A stretch of 20,412 nucleotides of DNA from a virus. Shown here piece after piece: positions 1,474 to 9,157 of this stretch. The stretch lies in the IMG/VR virus record IMGVR_UViG_3300009183_000447, positions 1-20,412 of that record. One strand, given 5' to 3'. Position 1 is the first letter of the stretch. Each line of letters begins with the position of its first letter. The notes beneath the pieces are model-generated. The model saw only the letters and a program-made list of their open reading frames with translations. It was not told where the DNA came from and made no database searches. The position numbers were made by a program, and so were the translations under genes.

Positions 1474-1501
1474 TTGACATGCCCATTGGGCAGTATATTG
1501 T
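1474..1501 (+). promoter_or_regulatory. Sigma70-type early promoter with palindromic operator (copy 1)
   Basis: TTGACA at 1474-1479 and TATTGT at 1496-1501 are 16 bases apart. The spacer begins with the perfect palindrome TGCCCATTGGGCA at 1480-1492. The arrangement recurs at 2360-2387 and, on the other strand, at 7231-7258. An operator between -35 and -10 implies repression, or activation, by a dimeric protein. It drives the gene at 1537. Confidence 0.72.
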
Positions 1502-2359: not shown

Positions 2360-2387
2360 TTGACATGCCCATTGGGCAGTGTATTGT
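2360..2387 (+). promoter_or_regulatory. Sigma70-type early promoter with palindromic operator (copy 2)
   Basis: TTGACA at 2360-2365 and TATTGT at 2382-2387 are 16 bases apart, with TGCCCATTGGGCA at 2366-2378. It matches copy 1 base for base from -35 to -10 except one spacer position, although the flanks differ. It drives the genes at 2421, 2743 and 2970. Confidence 0.75.
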
Positions 2388-2969: not shown

Positions 2970-3125
2970 ATGAAGATCGTCACCGAACAGCCTTGGATCG
3001 TTTGGACCGCCGTTGATGAAGACACCTATGACGGCGAGAACCGCACCGAGATGGGGATAGGTGCCACCGAGCAGGAAGCCATTGAGGATCTGCTCTGGCA
3101 GCTAGAAGAAGCGGAGGGGGCTTAG
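2970..3125 (+). CDS. Very small hypothetical early phage protein
   Basis: This 51-residue protein begins MKIVTEQPWIVWTAVDEDTY and ends in an acidic helix (EQEAIEDLLWQLEEAEGA). The start at 2970 is preceded by GATGGAGATACCT, the same translation-start cassette, with GGAG seven bases upstream. It is short but well placed: it follows the previous stop by 11 bases and ends in a terminator. Its TAG stop (3123-3125) overlaps the TAA stop of the convergent primase gene within a hairpin loop. It looks like a phage protein with a beta strand and an acidic helix; no function is assigned. Confidence 0.55.
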   Translation: MKIVTEQPWIVWTAVDEDTYDGENRTEMGIGATEQEAIEDLLWQLEEAEGA

Positions 3126-3140
3126 GCCCCCTTTTCTTTT
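3116..3140 (+). terminator. Terminator at convergent gene ends, loop within both stop codons
   Basis: GGGGGC (3116-3121), loop TTAG (3122-3125), GCCCCC (3126-3131), then TTTTCTTTT (3132-3140). The T-run makes it a good terminator for the rightward early unit. On the other strand the stem is the same but the tail is TCCGCTTCT, so it is weaker leftward. The loop lies within the stop codons of the genes on both strands. Confidence 0.8.
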
Positions 3141-4048
3141 ATCAGGACATCATTCCAATCCGTCCCCTTCTCGACCGGCACCTGCACATCGACCCGCCGA
3201 CCGAACTTCAGCACCAGCCGATTCGCGAGCGTGTAGGCCGCTTGCTGGCCGGTGTAGTTTCTATCGTTGTCGGCAAAGATCACGATCTCCTTCGCCTCCT
3301 CGGGCGGCACCCATTTCGCCATCATGGAGCTGTTGGTCGCAGACCACACCGGGCACTTGTAAAGGATCGCGGCGCTCATCGCGGTCTCGATGCCCTCGGC
3401 AACACCCATGAACTCGGCTGCGGGCCAGATCCTGATCGCGGACCCCTCGGGCAATCCCCCAGCCATGACCTTGCGCTGAAGATCAATAGGAGCCTTCTGC
3501 CCGTCAGGGGTCAGGTAGGTGATATGCAGGTTCACGCCCTTATCGTTTTGGTCCGATATCCGGGCGACCATTGCGGGGTAGATCTCTCCGTCATGCGGAT
3601 GCTTCAGGCCCTTATGCTCTAGGATCGCTTTAGAAGGCCAAGGACGGCCAAGGCGGCGTGTCTGGTATAACCCTACCGGACTATCCGCTGAAGGCGGCTC
3701 ACAGGCCCGCCAGACCTCCTGCATGGCCTTTTTCTGAGCCTTGGGGTCTTCAGGCTTCTTCGGTTCTGGCATCGGGGTGGTCCCGATAGTGTCCTTCACC
3801 AGCAGCCAAAGCTCGCGGAATGTTTTACCGGTAACTCTTTCGGCCAGCATGAAGCCATCGCCGGGGCCGCAGCCCGAGCAAAAGAACGAACCGGTGCCAT
3901 CCTTGTCGTCCCAGCGGAATCGGTCGGTGCCGCCGCACACTGGGCAAGGGCCATGCCTCCCCGTCAGGAAGCGGGCATCGACCCCCATCGTTGGAAGCAA
4001 AGCCCGCCAGCGCCCCCTGCAAAGCTCTTTAGCCGGTGCGCTGCTCAT
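3122..4048 (-). CDS. Phage DNA primase (zinc ribbon plus Toprim)
   Basis: This 308-residue protein has an N-terminal zinc-ribbon with CPVCGG (C35, C38) and CSGC (C57, C60), separated by a TDRFRW segment, as in phage P4/T7-type primases that read template DNA. A linker follows, then a Toprim domain: the acidic motif VAEGIET (E218) and IFADND (D260, D262), which bind catalytic metal. It should synthesise RNA primers for phage DNA replication. The start at 4048 lies seven bases after the helicase stop. The gene is the last of the leftward replication operon and ends convergently in the terminator at 3116. The fold is confident; no fused helicase domain is present, and helicase activity is supplied by the separate adjacent gene. 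Confidence 0.85.
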   Translation of the reverse strand: MSSAPAKELCRGRWRALLPTMGVDARFLTGRHGPCPVCGGTDRFRWDDKDGTGSFFCSGCGPGDGFMLAERVTGKTFRELWLLVKDTIGTTPMPEPKKPEDPKAQKKAMQEVWRACEPPSADSPVGLYQTRRLGRPWPSKAILEHKGLKHPHDGEIYPAMVARISDQNDKGVNLHITYLTPDGQKAPIDLQRKVMAGGLPEGSAIRIWPAAEFMGVAEGIETAMSAAILYKCPVWSATNSSMMAKWVPPEEAKEIVIFADNDRNYTGQQAAYTLANRLVLKFGRRVDVQVPVEKGTDWNDVLIKEKGA

Positions 4049-4055
4049 TGGCCTT

Positions 4056-5510
4056 CTACCTCTGTTTTGCTTTCACGATGTTGTAGTGCTTGATCCAGCT
4101 CATGGTCTGCGGGCGGATCATCAGGTCTGGGATTTTCTTGACCGCGTTGGGTGGCCCGACACCGAGCCGCGCCCGATAGGCGTGATAGGCCCAGCCCTCC
4201 TTGTAGCCCCGGTTGTGCGCGAACCCGAGCAGCTCCCGATAAAACCATTCCTTCTCGTGGAACGACCAATCCTTCGGTTTCACCTGCATGGAGCGTGTGA
4301 TCTCGTGCAGCTCGCCCATGACGCTTTCGATCTCGCTTACCGGCTGCGCTTCGAAACCGCATGAAGGACAGATCCGCACTTTCGGCGGACGCAGGAACGC
4401 ACACTTCGGGCATTCCTTCGGAAGCTTTTCTTTCTTCTCCGGCGTTTTCTTTTTTGACGATCCATCATCCAGCGCATCGTGGTGAATGTCAGTCACGAAG
4501 CCGAGACGGATTGTCGTGTCGCTGTGGTCCAACACCAAGCAATGATCTTTGCCCTTTGCCGGTCGAAGTCCGCGCCCGATCATCTGGACGTAGAGCATCT
4601 CGCTTTTCGTAGGCCGGGCCAGAATGATGCAGCGAACGTCAGCGTCGAAGCCTGTCGTCAAAACGCCCACGTTGCAGATCACACGCACATCGCCGTTCTC
4701 AAATTTCTTGACGATGTCGTTGCGTGCATCACGATCGGTATGCGCGTCCATGTAGTCCGCATTCACGCCCGCTGCGATGAATTGCTGCTGCACATGCTTC
4801 GCGTGAACACGATTGACGCAGAAGCAAATCGTTTGTCGATCTTCTCCGCGTTCCATCCATGTCGAAACAATATCGGCAACCAGTGCGCCTTGGTCCATCG
4901 CTTCGCCAAGACCCTTCAGCTCGAAGTCACCTGCAACCGTTTTCACGTTTGACAGATCAGGATGCGCCGGGGCGAAAACCTTAAAATCCGAAAGGTGGCC
5001 GAGGTCGATCAGCTCCTGCATCGTCACAGCGATGATCAAATCATCCCAAACCTTCGCCATGCCTCTCGCCCACGGTGTGGCTGTCAGCCCAACGAACGGG
5101 ATGTGCTTCCAATCGGTGTTCTTCGCCCACTCGTGGATGAACTTAAACTGCACATGCGCTTCATCGATGATCACGAGATCCGCGACAGGAATGTTTCGGC
5201 GCATCAGCGTCTGGATCGAACAGACCTGCACAGGCTGCTGGTGATCGGTCATCTCGTGGTCGCCCTGCATGACAGCGACCTCCCAGATGCCGTTCTGCGT
5301 GAACCGCTGCACCGTCTGATCGATCAGGCTCAGTGCCGGGACGGCGAAGATCACGCGCTTTCCCTTTTCCCGAGCCATACGGATGATGGCGGCAGCGATA
5401 ACGGTTTTACCGGCACCAGTGGGCAACTGCATGACCGGGCGCTTGTGTCCGGCGGCGAGTGATTGGCGAAGTGATGCTATGGCATCGGTCTGGTATTTTC
5501 TCAGTTCCAT
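4056..5510 (-). CDS. SF2 DEAD/DEAH-type helicase with C-terminal zinc finger
   Basis: This 484-residue protein shows all main superfamily 2 helicase motifs: Walker A PTGAGKT (30-36), DEAH (117-120), LTATPWA (143-149) and the arginine-finger motif QMIGRGLRP (310-318). TTGFD at 286-290 fits motif V. A CPKC...CPSC zinc finger (C368, C371, C382, C385) follows, then a basic helical tail. It is an ATP-dependent DNA translocase or helicase of the ResIII/Rad25-like group often found in phage replication modules. It probably unwinds DNA at the fork or at an origin opened upstream. The start at 5510 has GGAG with about six bases of spacing. It lies between the DUF1376 and primase genes, which supports a replication role. 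Confidence 0.87.
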   Translation of the reverse strand: MELRKYQTDAIASLRQSLAAGHKRPVMQLPTGAGKTVIAAAIIRMAREKGKRVIFAVPALSLIDQTVQRFTQNGIWEVAVMQGDHEMTDHQQPVQVCSIQTLMRRNIPVADLVIIDEAHVQFKFIHEWAKNTDWKHIPFVGLTATPWARGMAKVWDDLIIAVTMQELIDLGHLSDFKVFAPAHPDLSNVKTVAGDFELKGLGEAMDQGALVADIVSTWMERGEDRQTICFCVNRVHAKHVQQQFIAAGVNADYMDAHTDRDARNDIVKKFENGDVRVICNVGVLTTGFDADVRCIILARPTKSEMLYVQMIGRGLRPAKGKDHCLVLDHSDTTIRLGFVTDIHHDALDDGSSKKKTPEKKEKLPKECPKCAFLRPPKVRICPSCGFEAQPVSEIESVMGELHEITRSMQVKPKDWSFHEKEWFYRELLGFAHNRGYKEGWAYHAYRARLGVGPPNAVKKIPDLMIRPQTMSWIKHYNIVKAKQR

Positions 5511-5544
5511 TTCGGCTCCGTGGAAATTGACCTACTCAATCTAA

Positions 5545-6003
5545 TTAGAAAGATTCATCTTCTTGGTTCAGGTAAGGTTCTGTATCTGTATCTGTATGGT
5601 TAAACGGTCGTTTAGTGGTTAAACGTCCGTTCAGCGTTTGTTTAACGACCGTTGGATTGTTGTTGACTGACACACGTTTAGCGGCAGACAATTTTCCGGC
5701 TATCGAAGCCTTCTTGCTCTTCGCATCGACCGCCAGCAGCTCCAGATCCACCCTTTTGTGCCGCCACATGCCATCTTCGACAACGAAGAACTCAACAAGC
5801 GTTGAGCGGACGTTGAGCCAATGTTCCAAAGACAAGCGGGCAATGCCACTTAGCCGACGATCATCGTCAGGAAGCGGGGTGCCGCGCTGCCAATAGTTCA
5901 TGATCAGAAGCAGGTATGCGCCATGCTCAACAGTGGTCAAATGCTGAGTGTCCGACAGGTAATCTGTCGGGTAAAATTTCATGTAAGGTAAGGCGCTTGC
6001 CAT
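5545..6003 (-). CDS. DUF1376 (YdaU-like) phage replication protein
   Basis: Residues 6-90 match what I know of DUF1376/YdaU: PYMKFYPTDYLSDT, HGAYLLLIMNYW, LPDDDRRLSGIARLS and WRHKRVDLEL. The domain is common in phages and prophages where an O-like replication initiator would sit, next to helicase or helicase-loader genes; its exact biochemistry is unclear to me. At 152 residues it is shorter than many members. The C-terminal 40 residues are Lys/Thr/Asn-rich and are encoded by tandem DNA repeats (5579-5653) that may be an origin. The start at 6003 has only a weak ribosome site. It is preceded by a gap full of inverted repeats and followed by the helicase. Confidence 0.8.
   Translation of the reverse strand: MASALPYMKFYPTDYLSDTQHLTTVEHGAYLLLIMNYWQRGTPLPDDDRRLSGIARLSLEHWLNVRSTLVEFFVVEDGMWRHKRVDLELLAVDAKSKKASIAGKLSAAKRVSVNNNPTVVKQTLNGRLTTKRPFNHTDTDTEPYLNQEDESF
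5579..5653. repeat. Iteron-like repeats inside DUF1376 gene; candidate replication origin
   Basis: TCTGTA occurs three times in tandem (5579-5596). It abuts two tandem 19-mers, TGGTTAAACGGTCGTTTAG (5597-5615) and TGGTTAAACGTCCGTTCAG (5616-5634), which differ at three bases. A shorter third copy, TGTTTAACGACCGTT, lies at 5639-5653. All three hold the core AACG-N2-CGTT. Because 19 is not a multiple of three, the copies are read in different codon frames, so the repetition is at DNA level, not protein level. AT-rich sequence (CTAATTAGAAAGATT) flanks it at 5541-5555. The position inside a replication gene resembles the lambda origin inside O. Confidence 0.55.
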
Positions 6004-6004
6004 C

Positions 6005-6068
6005 GATCAACTCAATAGGTTGTGGTTGATCCGATGAGACGCGTAACGTATAGTAGAAACCGTTACGC
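6005..6068. promoter_or_regulatory. Operator-like inverted repeats over a rightward promoter
   Basis: GATCAAC (6005-6011) and GTTGATC (6025-6031) form a perfect seven-base inverted repeat. GCGTAACG (6041-6048) and CGTTACGC (6061-6068) form a perfect eight-base one with 12 bases between. A rightward promoter, TTGATC (6026-6031), 17 bases, TATAGT (6049-6054), lies across both, so a protein bound here should control it. The inner half-sites AACG and CGTT match the iteron core at 5603-5653, with ten more bases (about one helical turn) between them. Confidence 0.5.
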
Positions 6069-6136
6069 ACATCGGAACACCGCCATGTTCCGTTTCGACC
6101 CCAGTGGACTGCAATCCGCTGGGGTCAGTTCTTTAT
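6061..6136 (+). ncRNA. Candidate oop-like antisense small RNA
   Basis: A transcript starting about seven bases after TATAGT would begin near 6061. It would fold into GGAACA-ccgcca-TGTTCC (6074-6091), then a strong terminator stem GACCCCAGTGGA, loop CTGCAA, TCCGCTGGGGTC (6097-6126, one G-U pair), followed by AGTTCTTTAT. The RNA would be about 76 bases and would overlap the last codons of the HTH gene on the opposite strand. Lambda OOP RNA (about 77 bases, between cII and O, antisense to the cII end) has the same placement. The RNA is predicted only from sequence. Confidence 0.45.
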
Positions 6137-6316
6137 CGTAGCCTCTTTCTTTTCAGCCAGCAAGCGAAGCGCCAAAATTACTGACATCGGAATGCGCCGC
6201 TCCCCAGCCAGCCATTTGTAGATAGTTCGCTCATGTACGCCAACGGCCTTTGATACGGCTGCGTTGGTGACGTTTAGTCGGTCGAGCAGGTTTTGCAATT
6301 CGCGAATCGTTTCCAT
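6125..6316 (-). CDS. Small HTH DNA-binding protein (XRE/CII-position)
   Basis: This 63-residue protein is almost entirely one helix-turn-helix unit: LDRLNVTNAAVSKAVGVHER (11-30) followed by TIYKWLAGERRIPMS (31-45). It resembles short XRE/Cro-type regulators that bind DNA as dimers. I choose the ATG at 6316, which lies one base after the TGA of the upstream gene with GAGG seven bases before it; the longer frame to 6439 overlaps that gene almost fully. It sits immediately before the DUF1376 replication gene, the place of cII in lambdoid phages. It may regulate the operator promoters or the promoter at 6026. Its last two codons and stop overlap the candidate antisense RNA. Confidence 0.68.
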   Translation of the reverse strand: METIRELQNLLDRLNVTNAAVSKAVGVHERTIYKWLAGERRIPMSVILALRLLAEKKEATIKN

Positions 6317-6317
6317 T

Positions 6318-6620
6318 TCATGCCTCGCATTCTTCAGGGAAGTAGGTTTTGCGGTGGATCTTTCCGGCATCCGTCTGCGCGGCAATTTCCCATGCGTGCG
6401 ACCACGCTTTGGCAAGGCTGGTGAAAGTACGCTTGTCATGCGAGCCAGCAGAGTGAACCGTCCACTTCGCGCCCTTGCAGGGGTGCGTGATCACAGCGGC
6501 CAAGATGCGGCCAGCGCCGGGCAGAACGGGATCAACATACGCGCCGACTTCGCACCAGCCGTCATCGCGGCGGTCTGTGACTTTGGTGACGTAATGAACT
6601 TTGGTTTCGTAGATGGGCAT
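6318..6620 (-). CDS. Hypothetical early phage protein
   Basis: This 100-residue protein has alternating beta-like segments (YETKVHYVTKVTDR, AKWTVHSAGSHDKRTFTS) and a helix containing AKAWSHAWEIAAQT. I know no named family. The start at 6620 is the second ATG of ATGGAGATCGATATG, the common translation-start cassette; the first ATG (6632) is treated as part of the ribosome site. A UUCG hairpin lies 27 bases upstream. The gene belongs to the leftward operon driven from 7258 and precedes the HTH gene by one base, so the two are coupled. Confidence 0.55.
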   Translation of the reverse strand: MPIYETKVHYVTKVTDRRDDGWCEVGAYVDPVLPGAGRILAAVITHPCKGAKWTVHSAGSHDKRTFTSLAKAWSHAWEIAAQTDAGKIHRKTYFPEECEA

Positions 6621-6646
6621 ATCGATCTCCATTTGGTAAGAAATGA

Positions 6647-6664
6647 GAGGGGCCGAAGCCCCTC
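6647..6664 (-). terminator. Intercistronic UUCG hairpin, leftward operon
   Basis: Read leftward it is GAGGGGC, loop TTCG, GCCCCTC: seven base pairs with a UUCG loop, followed by TCATTTC, a weak tail. It lies between two cotranscribed genes and probably attenuates or protects the transcript. Confidence 0.5.
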
Positions 6665-6670
6665 GTTTTA

Positions 6671-6820
6671 TTAACGCTCTTGGGCAACCTCGTTCACCAC
6701 AGCTTTGAGGCGGACCAGAACTTCCTCATCGGTCAGGCCAGAGGCGCGATGGGAATCGACGTAAGAAGCCAAGGCTGGGATAGCGGTAATCACTTCATTT
6801 AGTTTGTCAGTGGCGGTCAT
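6671..6820 (-). CDS. Very small hypothetical phage protein
   Basis: This 49-residue protein runs from the ATG at 6820 to TAA at 6671-6673. It begins MTATDKLNEVITAIPALASY and contains a second helix DEEVLVRLKAVVNEVAQER, so it looks like a two-helix acidic protein. AAGGA lies seven bases upstream of the start, a good ribosome site. UUCG hairpins flank it on both sides (6647 and 6853), which gives each cistron its own bracketing structure. Function is unknown; two-helix proteins of this size in phage early operons are usually unnamed. Confidence 0.55.
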   Translation of the reverse strand: MTATDKLNEVITAIPALASYVDSHRASGLTDEEVLVRLKAVVNEVAQER

Positions 6821-6852
6821 GAGATGTTCCTTTTGATAAAAGATAAGGTGGG

Positions 6853-6870
6853 AGGGGGCCGAAGCCCCCT
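6853..6870 (-). terminator. Intercistronic UUCG hairpin, leftward operon
   Basis: Read leftward it is AGGGGGC, loop TTCG, GCCCCCT: seven base pairs with a UUCG loop, followed by CCCACC. It has no T-run, so it is not a classical terminator. It lies four bases after the stop of the gene at 6875-7183. Confidence 0.5.
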
Positions 6871-6874
6871 TTGA

Positions 6875-7183
6875 TTAGAAAGCCTTGATCTTCACGCGGG
6901 GGCGGATCGTCGGGTTGATCGCTTGAGCGTGGCAACGCTGGAAGTCTTCAGCGGACAGGAGCGTCTGGGCCAGATCCTTCGAGAAGGTGACCGGGTAGGT
7001 CTTGGTGAAAATCACATCGGCAGAGTTGCCGACGATGATGGCTTCGAGAACGTCCTTCTTGTTGGGGGCAAAGGCAGCAGCCTTGATGAGCTGTTCCTTG
7101 ATCGCCGTGCGCTGGGCATTGAGGTCAGAGATCTCAAGGTCGAGGCGGGCATATTCGTCTGCGAGGGCTGCGAAGTCGGTCAT
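6875..7183 (-). CDS. Hypothetical helical early phage protein
   Basis: This 102-residue protein has a long amphipathic N-terminal helix (DEYARLDLEISDLNAQRTAI, then KEQLIKAAAFAPN), probably a coiled coil. A compact beta segment (VLEAIIVGNSADVIFTKTYP) and a basic C-terminus follow. The pattern is seen in small phage proteins that carry a coiled-coil followed by a strand pair, but I recall no name. The start at 7183 follows ATGGAGATTGAC, the common translation-start cassette. It is the first gene of the leftward replication operon, 48 bases downstream of the -10 of the operator promoter. Confidence 0.55.
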   Translation of the reverse strand: MTDFAALADEYARLDLEISDLNAQRTAIKEQLIKAAAFAPNKKDVLEAIIVGNSADVIFTKTYPVTFSKDLAQTLLSAEDFQRCHAQAINPTIRPRVKIKAF

Positions 7184-7230
7184 GTCAATCTCCATATCAA
7201 TCAGGCCCGGTCTAGATCGACCGTGAAGCA

Positions 7231-7258
7231 ACAATAACATGCCCAAAGGCCATGTCAA
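7231..7258 (-). promoter_or_regulatory. Leftward promoter with variant of the shared operator (copy 3)
   Basis: Read leftward, TTGACA (7258-7253) is followed after 16 bases by TATTGT (7236-7231). The spacer holds TGGCCTTTGGGCA (7252-7240), differing from TGCCCATTGGGCA at two positions; one half-site is thus imperfect. It drives the replication operon that begins at 7183. The weaker palindrome could mean weaker repression than at 1474 and 2360. Confidence 0.68.
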
Positions 7259-7267
7259 CTGCTATTT

Positions 7268-7789
7268 TTACTGCCCAAAGAACAGGGTTGTGATCGGCTT
7301 ATTTTGGAATAGATACCAGCAGCAATTCTCTTTGCCCACGCTGGCCGAGCCATCAATCCACTTCACCCGGCCTATCGACACCACCCGAGAGCAGATCTCC
7401 AAATAGGGCTTGGCCTGTTTGGTGTGCATCCAATCAGCGTCAAAGAGCAGCCATGTCGGTGCTAAAGTTGAGCATCGCTCTATGATCTGGTGCAGGACAG
7501 GGCGGTCCCACGGCGGGTTAGTGATGATGCTATGCGCCCCCTTCAGGTCCGGGGCGGTGATAAACGAAGCGTCGAGCTTGCCCACGTTGCTGGCCCGAGG
7601 CTCGACATCGTAAGCGGCCCAGCACTGATGGCCGAAGAGCGTCAAATAATTGACGATGTTCCCAGCACCGGCACAAGGCTCGCAGTAGATCGTATTGGGC
7701 TGCAAATGCTTCAGCAGCGGCTTGATGGCCGAAGCTGGCGTGTCATAGGTCTGAAGGGTCTTATGCTCAAAATTGCTGCGCTTTCCCAT
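7268..7789 (-). CDS. Putative DNA adenine methyltransferase (NPPW)
   Basis: This 173-residue protein has a methyltransferase motif I region, CEPCAGAGNIVNYL, that binds S-adenosylmethionine. After it comes the catalytic motif NPPW, typical of amino-group (N6-adenine or N4-cytosine) DNA methylases. The order FEHKTLQTYDTPASAI, motif I, NPPW fits the small phage adenine methylase type. No separate target-recognition domain is evident, so specificity is unknown. It could protect phage DNA from host restriction or mark it for regulation. I prefer the ATG at 7789 because AGGA lies 5-6 bases upstream; the ATG at 7801 is the alternative. Its start overlaps the end of RusA by 23 bases. The motif IV differs from the DPPY of CcrM. 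Confidence 0.75.
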   Translation of the reverse strand: MGKRSNFEHKTLQTYDTPASAIKPLLKHLQPNTIYCEPCAGAGNIVNYLTLFGHQCWAAYDVEPRASNVGKLDASFITAPDLKGAHSIITNPPWDRPVLHQIIERCSTLAPTWLLFDADWMHTKQAKPYLEICSRVVSIGRVKWIDGSASVGKENCCWYLFQNKPITTLFFGQ

Positions 7790-8144
7790 ATAATTCCTCA
7801 TCCATAGGTTCGACTATAATCAAGCATTCGGGGCCTTTTTCGACCCACCGCATATCAATCCATCCGCAGAGCGAATCATCCTCTACGACCCGAGCTTCTG
7901 TAAGCACATCGCTGACAGCCTTTTCGAGGTTCCCGATGTCCCGCTTGCGTCGATCCGGTCGAACGGCCAGCAGGGTCATTTTGTACATGCCGGTCACCCG
8001 AAGCGTCCGGCACTGTTCTTTGATGGCCCACAGAGCGTGCACGCGCCATTCTTTGTACTTGGGCGAGCTATACACTCTCCCGGTCTTAGTTGCCCTCCAC
8101 AGGCGGTTCACGCTTGGCGGGTACGGCAGGGTAAGCCGGATCAT
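7767..8144 (-). CDS. rusA: RusA-family Holliday junction resolvase
   Basis: This 125-residue protein begins MIRLTLPYPPSVNRLWRATK, the RusA N-terminal signature. It contains RRKRDIGNLEKAVSDVL and then VVEDDSLC, carrying the conserved acidic residues that bind catalytic magnesium. Length matches the family (about 120 residues). RusA enzymes cut four-way DNA junctions, which would resolve recombination intermediates before packaging. The start at 8144 has AAAGGA six bases upstream; an in-frame extension to 8195 adds an unconserved basic segment. It overlaps the upstream HTH gene by 59 bases and the methyltransferase by 23. It should act with the ERF/YqaJ recombination genes on the opposite strand. 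Confidence 0.88.
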   Translation of the reverse strand: MIRLTLPYPPSVNRLWRATKTGRVYSSPKYKEWRVHALWAIKEQCRTLRVTGMYKMTLLAVRPDRRKRDIGNLEKAVSDVLTEARVVEDDSLCGWIDMRWVEKGPECLIIVEPMDEELYGKAQQF

Positions 8145-8292
8145 TCTTTGTCCTTTTGCGAGCTGCCAGATACCTCTGGAGCGCCCTGTAAACATCGGCC
8201 TCGTGGGCCTTCAGCCTATCCGCTATCTCGGCAGTATTAAGCCCCTTGTGCCACAGCATCCCCACAACAACGTAGGAGATCTTCTTAGTCAT
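8086..8292 (-). CDS. Small HTH protein
   Basis: This 68-residue protein contains one helix-turn-helix, GLNTAEIADRLKAHEADVYR, then ALQRYLAARKRTK and an unstructured Pro-rich tail (AYPAVPAKREPPVEGN). The HTH looks like those of phage regulators and terminase-like small proteins that read host or phage DNA; no family name is certain. The start at 8292 overlaps the previous stop in ATGACTAA, so it is probably made by coupled translation. The last 19 residues are read from DNA that also encodes the start of RusA in another frame, and the Pro-rich tail may be a by-product of that overlap. Confidence 0.58.
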   Translation of the reverse strand: MTKKISYVVVGMLWHKGLNTAEIADRLKAHEADVYRALQRYLAARKRTKNDPAYPAVPAKREPPVEGN

Positions 8293-8476
8293 AGAGATCG
8301 GGTCGAAGTTTTTGGCGCGGGATGCCGGTGATTTTCGAGATCTGCGACAAGTGCCTAAACGGAACCGACCTCCATTGATTAACGGCGGCGCGTGTGACGT
8401 TGAGCTGCCGAGCCAGTTCAGACATCGAACCGACAGCGGCAAACACTTCGAGGAGTATCGGGGTCTTGTTTTTCAT
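8285..8476 (-). CDS. YdaS/Cro-like repressor
   Basis: This 63-residue protein matches the YdaS/Cro-type family: FAAVGSMSELARQLNVTRAA then VNQWRSVP, and near the end ITGIPRQKLRPDLYD, the signature C-terminus of this group. Such proteins bind operators as dimers and control early phage promoters; some are antitoxin-like. The start at 8476 has no clear ribosome site, and a leftward TTGACA with a weak -10 (8484-8512) places transcription start close to the ATG, so the mRNA may be leaderless. It is divergent from the recombination operon, with the operator-like TTGACAGGCGTGTCAA between them. It is likely to autoregulate and control the rightward operon. Confidence 0.78.
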   Translation of the reverse strand: MKNKTPILLEVFAAVGSMSELARQLNVTRAAVNQWRSVPFRHLSQISKITGIPRQKLRPDLYD

Positions 8477-8483
8477 GCCGGGC

Positions 8484-8512
8484 AAGATGCCGAAAATTGA
8501 CAGGCGTGTCAA
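8484..8512 (-). promoter_or_regulatory. Leftward repressor promoter with inverted repeat operator
   Basis: TTGACA (8512-8507), 17 bases, CATCTT (8489-8484) is a modest promoter for the YdaS-like gene. TTGACA and TGTCAA flank GGCG at 8497-8512, a perfect six-base inverted repeat that doubles as the -35. A repressor dimer bound there would cover this promoter and lie upstream of the rightward promoter at 8530. Confidence 0.5.
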
Positions 8513-8529
8513 CTTTTGGAAAGGAACCC

Positions 8530-8558
8530 TTGACGGGCTTTCGCGCTGCGACTACATT
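8530..8558 (+). promoter_or_regulatory. Rightward promoter of the recombination operon
   Basis: TTGACG (8530-8535), 17 bases, TACATT (8553-8558) fits a sigma70 promoter. It starts about 30 bases upstream of the ERF gene, whose ribosome site is TGGAG at 8575-8579. The palindrome TGCCCATTGGGCA is absent, so its control differs from that of the three early promoters. Confidence 0.6.
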
Positions 8559-8587
8559 CGACCCGTGATTGATATGGAGACACACAA

Positions 8588-9157
8588 ATGAAATGGTCAG
8601 AAAATATTACGAATATCGCTGCTGCTCTAGTGCAGCTCCAATCCGAAATCGAAGGCGTGACAAAGACCGCCAGCAACTCGCACTTTAAGAGCAAGTATGC
8701 AGATCTACCTACCGTAATCGCAGCACTTCGTGAGCCGCTTGCAAGAAATAATCTTTGCGTTCTCCAAAGCCCGCACAAGGTCGATGGTGGTGTCGAGGTT
8801 GAGACAATGGTCCTGCATAAGTCAGGCGAATGGATCAGCGATGTTTGCTACATCCCGATCAACAAGTGGGATGCCCACGGCATGGGCAGCGGGATTTCCT
8901 ATGGCCGGAGATACGGGCTCATGGCTATTTTCTGCATCGGCACCGAAGATGATGACGGCAATGCCGCTGTCGAAAAAGGCCCGTCGAAGCCTGTCACGGA
9001 CGTTGTTTATAAAGAGGGCCTCAAGGCCGCTAATGTCAGCAGCAAGGCTCTCACCGCGTGGTGGAGTGCATTGAGCGAAGAAGAGCGTGAACAGGTCTCT
9101 GCGGATCAACGCATAGATCTGAAAGCTCGCGCCAAAGTTTACGATGAAAAACAATAA
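8588..9157 (+). CDS. erf: ERF-family single-strand annealing recombinase
   Basis: This 189-residue protein carries the ERF hallmarks: FKSKYADLPTVIAALREPL (33-51), LHKSGEWI (76-83) and the strongly conserved GMGSGISYGRRYGLMAIF followed by EDDDGNAA (98-127). ERF proteins form rings that anneal complementary single strands, as in P22, and support phage recombination and concatemer repair. The C-terminal 55 residues, after NAAVEKG, form a less conserved helical region that may contact partners. It is the first gene of the rightward operon, with GGAG eight bases upstream of the ATG at 8588, and is followed by the YqaJ exonuclease, its usual partner. Confidence 0.9.
   Translation: MKWSENITNIAAALVQLQSEIEGVTKTASNSHFKSKYADLPTVIAALREPLARNNLCVLQSPHKVDGGVEVETMVLHKSGEWISDVCYIPINKWDAHGMGSGISYGRRYGLMAIFCIGTEDDDGNAAVEKGPSKPVTDVVYKEGLKAANVSSKALTAWWSALSEEEREQVSADQRIDLKARAKVYDEKQ

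Follow-up and report, generated by a model that had tools for sequence, protein, structure and literature searches.

Antisense-RNA control of copy number is a hallmark of plasmids. In repABC plasmids, a countertranscript (ctRNA) is made between repB and repC, the origin lies inside repC, and the ctRNA refolds the leader from a long hairpin that exposes the Shine–Dalgarno (SD) sequence into a closed form (PMC3155836, PMC6090056). In pMV158, RNAII is encoded between copG and repB, just upstream of the repB translation signals (PMC4485353). Among phages, lambda OOP shares 52 nt with cII and has its 5′ end at 38,675 (PMC5869508), and the antisense RNA sar of P22, 68/69 nt long, acts on translation initiation (PMC12197685). 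Here, we describe a cassette ahead of a phage replication gene that probably works most like the repABC ctRNA, sits like lambda OOP and is similar in sequence to none of these.

The cassette lies in an IMG/VR virus record of 20,412 bases, analysed at its full length and called the window below. A minus-strand replication operon in the window consists of a small HTH gene, a 121-nt gap, a DUF1376 gene, a helicase gene and another open reading frame (3122–4048), and the stretch ahead of the replication gene very probably makes an antisense RNA of ~73 bases, judging from its sequence and that of its relatives. The features are as follows.

4056–5510, minus strand: DEAD/ResIII-type helicase gene, downstream of the DUF1376 gene; served to fetch syntenic loci
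5545–6003, minus strand: DUF1376 gene, primosomal/replication type (PF07120, E = 1e-25; PHROG primosomal protein)
5597–5634, plus strand: two iteron-like 19-nt repeats within the DUF1376 gene, a possible origin
6026–6054, plus strand: antisense promoter, −35 TTGATC (6026–6031), 17-bp spacer, −10 TATAGT (6049–6054); 9/12 matches, TTGATC in all members
6062–6136, plus strand: predicted antisense RNA, ~73 nt, 3′ end about 6134–6136, based on a conserved G, constancy of length and the fold
6073–6092, plus strand: hairpin 1, 7-bp stem CGGAACA/TGTTCCG, invariant across relatives, with a variable loop
6097–6126, plus strand: intrinsic terminator stem, 12 bp, with one wobble that can pair in the small-RNA (sRNA) sense only
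6125–6316, minus strand: small HTH gene, upstream in the operon (HTH_3, E = 5e-6)

Taken alone, the promoter match does not exceed chance, the region having 5 such matches versus 3.1 ± 1.6 expected; unlike it, the succession of promoter and terminator in this gap is above chance. The terminator is the strongest terminator-like site among those listed in 3000–9000, its T-rich tail (AGTTCTTTAT) reaches 6136, and the fold of the 76-nt RNA has a z of −5, with 0/200 shuffles as good. Promoter, 12-bp terminator stem and T-rich tail are all where a sequence-only reading of the window had put them. The small hairpin that it reported is also present, with a 7-bp stem at 6073–6092 in place of limits at 6074–6091, and its transcript of about 76 bases becomes a predicted RNA of ~73 nt, the most likely +1 being G6062 because a G 7–8 nt past the −10 is conserved. 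Around the −10 there is a dyad (outer arms 6030–6036/6070–6076, inner arms 6041–6048/6061–6068), and the −35 region (6024–6036) is complementary to the DUF1376 start region (6001–6011). The predicted RNA is antisense to the HTH–DUF1376 mRNA, in a leader of ~120 nt; its 5′ end lies ~59 nt before the DUF1376 start codon, and its other end reaches ~10 nt into the HTH gene.

This arrangement closely resembles that of OOP: both are flanked by a small regulator gene on one side and an initiator gene for replication on the other, run antisense to these genes and have a hairpin followed by a terminator; here an own promoter and intrinsic terminator are likewise predicted, and the length is ~73 nt versus 77 nt. 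There are also differences. OOP begins ~11 nt ahead of the O start (38,686), the RNA here ~59 nt ahead of the start codon; the 52 nt of OOP over cII compare with ~10 nt over the HTH gene in the window, and at least six relatives have no overlap; and no sequence similarity was found between the phage cassette and OOP. The order of small regulator gene, antisense RNA and initiator gene is shared with pMV158 (copG–RNAII–repB), whose RNAII has 48 nt and one hairpin and is not known to take part in a three-way leader pairing like that of the phage cassette (PMC4485353). P22 sar targets the antirepressor gene ant, whereas the phage cassette faces a replication gene.

At least 16 distinct loci, all from uncultured phages, carry the cassette; in every one it precedes a replication-initiator-type gene and a helicase gene. 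All relatives are metagenomic virus contigs; their loci are related, and the p-values given below are thus indicative and overstate independence. Two contigs (L002, L003) are near-identical to the window. Another pair (L015/L018) is ~95% identical to the window yet carries another DUF1376 gene, and its alignment with the window breaks inside the gap, with hexamers, hairpin stem and terminator kept and spacer and loop changed. Between ~5574 and ~6070, with flanks ~95% identical on either side, this pair shows a mosaic exchange to another DUF1376 subtype, one junction falling within the antisense cassette. A pattern scan with flank checks placed the cassette in L049, L111, L114, L135–L138 and L140. 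By an independent route, relatives were fetched by the helicase alone and scanned with a covariance model of promoter and hairpin only, which additionally found the cassette in L163, L164, L167, L169, L170, L204, L216 and L221/L224, always on the antisense strand and ~450–580 nt upstream of the helicase gene. A two-gap pattern added L239, L240 and L242. The terminator, absent from the covariance model, is still correctly placed in each of the loci, in mostly different sequence.

What is kept is specific. All members have TTGATC, with a −10 that changes to TATAAT, TATTAT or TATATT in relatives; the stem of hairpin 1 is constant and its loop variable (e.g. GGGCAU in L167, AUGCAG in L169). A promoter leading to a terminator is present on the antisense strand of 13/13 measured loci and on the sense strand of 0/13, with 0.01 expected, and, counted from the conserved +1 G, the RNA is 71–75 nt long in all 13. 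Promoter and hairpin stem are conserved, as is terminator pairing through changed sequence; a lack of such conservation among related phages is one of the two outcomes that the sequence-only reading had named as refuting its antisense RNA. Outside this group, blastn against 50,697 phage records gave no match to the cassette, nor did 72,556 plasmid records, and Rfam gave no relevant match even at E ≤ 10; sub-threshold Rfam matches to mir-622 and NsiR1 were dismissed. Several other candidates were set aside: the distant DUF1376 loci L005–L013 have unrelated operons and no cassette; 106 matches of the first pattern scan, with a 5-nt loop, are an unrelated repeated sequence; and 16 matches in a genome-contig scan, none with promoter and terminator context, were taken as chance, as were L036 and L236, which likewise miss that context. 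Sequence resembling CATCGGAACAGGAAATGTTCCG, of the 5-nt loop class, occurs in L016, L017, L019 and ~100 other IMG/VR contigs in an apparently conserved context and has no relation to the cassette.

Which gene does the cassette accompany? Its left neighbour is always of replication type, of several kinds: DUF1376 (two subtypes), replication-initiation/DnaD-like (L163, L176) and another replication family (L182, and L220 by sequence resemblance). Its right neighbour is an HTH gene in most loci, a C5-methylase gene in L163 and a DnaA domain-IV gene in L216, L220, L221, L239, L240 and L242 (identified by a Pfam test for L216 and L220 and by sequence similarity for L221, L239, L240 and L242). The RNA runs about 12 nt into the right neighbour in L159 and does not reach it in L163, L176, L182, L204, L216 and L220. 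Since the overlap is not kept and the right neighbour is replaced, the conserved object is the replication-gene leader, not the HTH end; on comparative sequence grounds, the conserved partner of the predicted RNA is the leader and ribosome-binding site (RBS) of the replication gene. The sequence-only reading was thus right about the overlap with the HTH 3′ end in the window and about the oop-like position, orientation and size; the control of the HTH gene that its OOP analogy implies is doubtful, for the cassette persists beside a DnaA domain-IV or methylase gene. In other words, the cassette moves with the leader while both adjoining genes are exchanged, which makes the target prediction sharp and a reporter test easy.

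Read as mRNA, the leader contains four segments and a pair of hairpin arms.

6086–6092, minus strand: segment 1 (CGGAACA), partner of segment 2
6070–6079, minus strand: segment 2 (UGUUCCGAUG), pairing with segment 1 or segment 3
6041–6068, minus strand: inner arms of the leader hairpin around the −10 (GCGTAACG ... CGTTACGC), a dyad
6024–6036, minus strand: segment 3 (CAUCGGAUCAACC), in DNA shared with the −35, pairing with segment 2 or the DUF1376 RBS
6001–6011, minus strand: segment 4 (GUUGAUCGAUG), the DUF1376 ribosome-binding region and start codon, complementary to segment 3

The pairings 1:2, 2:3 and 3:4 are mutually alternative, as in an attenuator. Segments 2 and 1 close a hairpin, 1′. 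The 2:3 pairing has a core of UCCGAU with AUCGGA, lengthened by variable inner arms around the −10; among its six core pairs, every non-Watson–Crick case is a G-U in the mRNA sense, and the dyad hairpin has a z of −3 to −7 in the 16 loci. The leader hairpin is better in the mRNA than in the sRNA sense in 14/16 loci (p = 0.009, loci related), and the terminator is better in the sRNA than in the mRNA sense in 16/16 (p = 2e-4, loci related); the same DNA holds two RNA structures, one per strand. The 3:4 hairpin, at −8 to −16 kcal/mol in 16/16 loci, has a strand bias of 10/16 (p = 0.01), weaker than those of leader hairpin and terminator. Segment 4 itself differs among loci: GUUGAUCGAUG in the window, GUUGACCGAUG in L159, GGUUCAUCUGAUG in L163 and GGUGAUCUGAUG in L164. 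Segment 3 pairs with replication-gene RBSs at a mean of −12.4 kcal/mol, versus −4.6 for 94 other RBSs on the same contigs (p = 1e-8, loci related), and replication-gene RBSs are unpaired at 0.25, versus 0.55 at the starts of other genes (p = 1e-8, loci related). A segment-swap test was weak (p = 0.05) because segment 3 hardly varies. Two further ideas were rejected: a small leader open reading frame from the GAUG of segment 2, whose start codon is not conserved, and the leader hairpin as a leftward terminator, as it is without a U-tract. Comparison across the loci establishes the cassette, its conservation, its antisense orientation and, as a property of the sequences, its potential for 1:2, 2:3 and 3:4 pairing.

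From this we infer that the RNA is made, lowers translation of the replication gene and sets phage DNA copy number. It probably acts on the replication gene as a plasmid copy-number brake does, and we lean towards a cis-antisense RNA (6062–6136) that damps DUF1376 expression or translation through pairing with the leader. The ~73-nt RNA would be transcribed from its own promoter against the DUF1376 leader and ended by the intrinsic terminator at the HTH stop codon. With 2:3 paired, the leader would form a long hairpin with the RBS freer; with 3:4 paired, SD region and start codon would be buried, the off state. The antisense RNA would pair with segments 1 and 2, so that 2:3 would be blocked, segment 3 left free for the RBS and 3:4 locked; part of the effect may come from RNase III cutting the duplex. 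In folding models, the states lie within 1.2–7.9 kcal/mol (the cost of forcing 2:3), with a mean RBS openness of 0.42 with 2:3 and 0.24 without it. At equilibrium, the free leader is mostly RBS-closed, and modelled antisense binding changes openness from 0.24 to 0.23. Because the equilibrium leader is already mostly closed, the switch needs 2:3 to form co-transcriptionally or by the action of some factor, and this is the weak point of the model.

The parallel with the repABC ctRNA (RepE) of α-proteobacterial plasmids, e.g. p42d, lies in an antisense RNA encoded between the initiator gene and the gene before it in the operon, perhaps also in a leader that may form either a long SD-free hairpin or a refold downstream of the antisense site (the pairing potential is conserved, but the closed fold is favoured at equilibrium), and in an origin in the initiator coding sequence. 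The last is suggested here, as an inference, because iteron-like repeats are found in several replication genes: those next to the cassette have repeats spaced 11, 12 or 23 bp in several cases, and L158, L163, L164, L176 and L204 carry different iteron-like arrays. The phage cassette differs from the ctRNA in its length (~73 versus ~50 nt), in its initiator genes and in belonging to a phage rather than a plasmid. Its off structure would hide the RBS but is not an intrinsic terminator, since no U-tract follows the 3:4 hairpin in the leader sequences; and searches of Rfam and of the 72,556 plasmid records gave no sequence homology to known ctRNA families or plasmids.

Other explanations account for parts of these data. 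If the RNA were a strict oop analogue, it would pair at the HTH end of the HTH–DUF1376 mRNA, and RNase III cleavage would mainly lower the HTH regulator. The OOP-like position, orientation and size speak for this, as do the overlap in the window and L159 and the action of OOP on cII in lambda (PMC5869508); the six loci with no overlap and the survival of the cassette when the HTH gene is replaced speak against it, and we think it rather improbable. Transcription from the promoter might instead open or prime a nearby origin, with the RNA as a by-product. Iteron-like repeats do lie inside the adjoining replication gene, and in lambda pO is still important in the regulation of replication, OOP not being its primer (PMC12197685); but transcription here heads away from the iterons and ends ~73 nt on, where a terminator is strictly kept, and this reading, which we consider unlikely, would explain neither why segment 3 is complementary to the RBS nor why the leader hairpin folds better in the mRNA sense. 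Loops with the anti-SD-like ACACC/CACCU beside a conserved stem suggest a small RNA that acts in trans, its C-rich hairpin loop pairing with SD regions of host or phage mRNAs. Yet the loop varies, as in L167 and L169, and the position of the cassette is never uncoupled from the replication gene; such a role appears quite unlikely.

The dyad could also be a DNA operator over an ordinary promoter, e.g. a site for the HTH protein, conserved as a protein site, as the TCCGATG/CATCGGA arms on both sides of the −10 would allow. An arm spacing of 28–33 bp that varies in single steps is hard to reconcile with such a site, as are the exclusively G-U departures at the six core positions, the folding bias towards the mRNA sense and the persistence of the dyad where the HTH gene is gone, and we hold the operator to be very unlikely. 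Finally, the antisense RNA might be an activator of the replication gene that, for instance, opens an inhibitory fold or trims the leader. The free leader is predicted to be mostly closed, so an activator would have work to do; modelled antisense binding, however, leaves the RBS closed, and the antisense RNAs ahead of rep genes described in PMC4485353 and PMC6090056 are repressors. We see very little chance of activation.

Gaps of unrelated sequence at the same place, and of the same design in appearance, were found in other helicase loci, namely L172, L173, L175, L177, L184, L188–L191, L193, L194, L200, L203, L207 and L229. Four of 14 unrelated-sequence gaps pass a strict promoter–terminator test, with 0 expected; RBS burial in them is not significant, and start codons are mis-assigned in several loci. 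As 4/14 pass and RBS burial is not significant, these cassettes are a lead only; F2-type gaps were dropped as cassettes because their promoter consensus is too weak. It is conceivable, if rather doubtful, that phage replication modules recurrently place a copy-control antisense RNA of the plasmid style between their regulator and initiator genes, in at least 2–3 sequence-unrelated families of the same design (the TTGATCCG/CGGAACA family and the cassettes of L175, L184, L189–L194, L200–L207, L229 and L172–L173), with lambda oop as a displaced relative whose better-known effect on cII is secondary. For the cassette described here, a conserved copy-control RNA ahead of the replication genes would mean that an RNA lets these phages slow their own replication; it would connect the control of replication in plasmids with that in phages and offer a testable explanation of why RNAs occur at the oop position.

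Some of the unrelated-sequence cassettes in the gap between HTH and replication gene share a conserved CAAGTCCAAC and a hairpin CCAACNNGCG..CGCNNGTTGG, in which TGCG/CGCA becomes TGTG/CACA in L190. In L189 and L190, the loops of the putative antisense RNAs (UGUCACCC and GCGUCACC) are perfectly complementary, over 8 nt, to the SD of the replication gene.

The window itself holds further repeated elements. Three near-identical promoters, TTGACATGCCCATTGGGCAGTATATTGT, lie at 1474–1501 (plus), 2360–2387 (plus) and 7231–7258 (minus), each with a palindrome TGCCCA..TGGGCA between −35 and −10; they resemble a shared early promoter/operator set, their core is found in several relatives too, and the one at 7231–7258 would drive the HTH–DUF1376 operon. 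A start module, TGGAGATTGA(T/C)ATG, occurs in six copies versus 0.14 expected (1526, 1932, 2732, 6631 on the minus strand, 7194 on the minus strand and 12093), placing one SD before many small genes with MEIDM-type N-termini. Short GC hairpins of the GGGGGCTTCGGCCCCC type, possibly bidirectional terminators, recur between small genes at 1899, 2323, 3113, 6647 and 6851.
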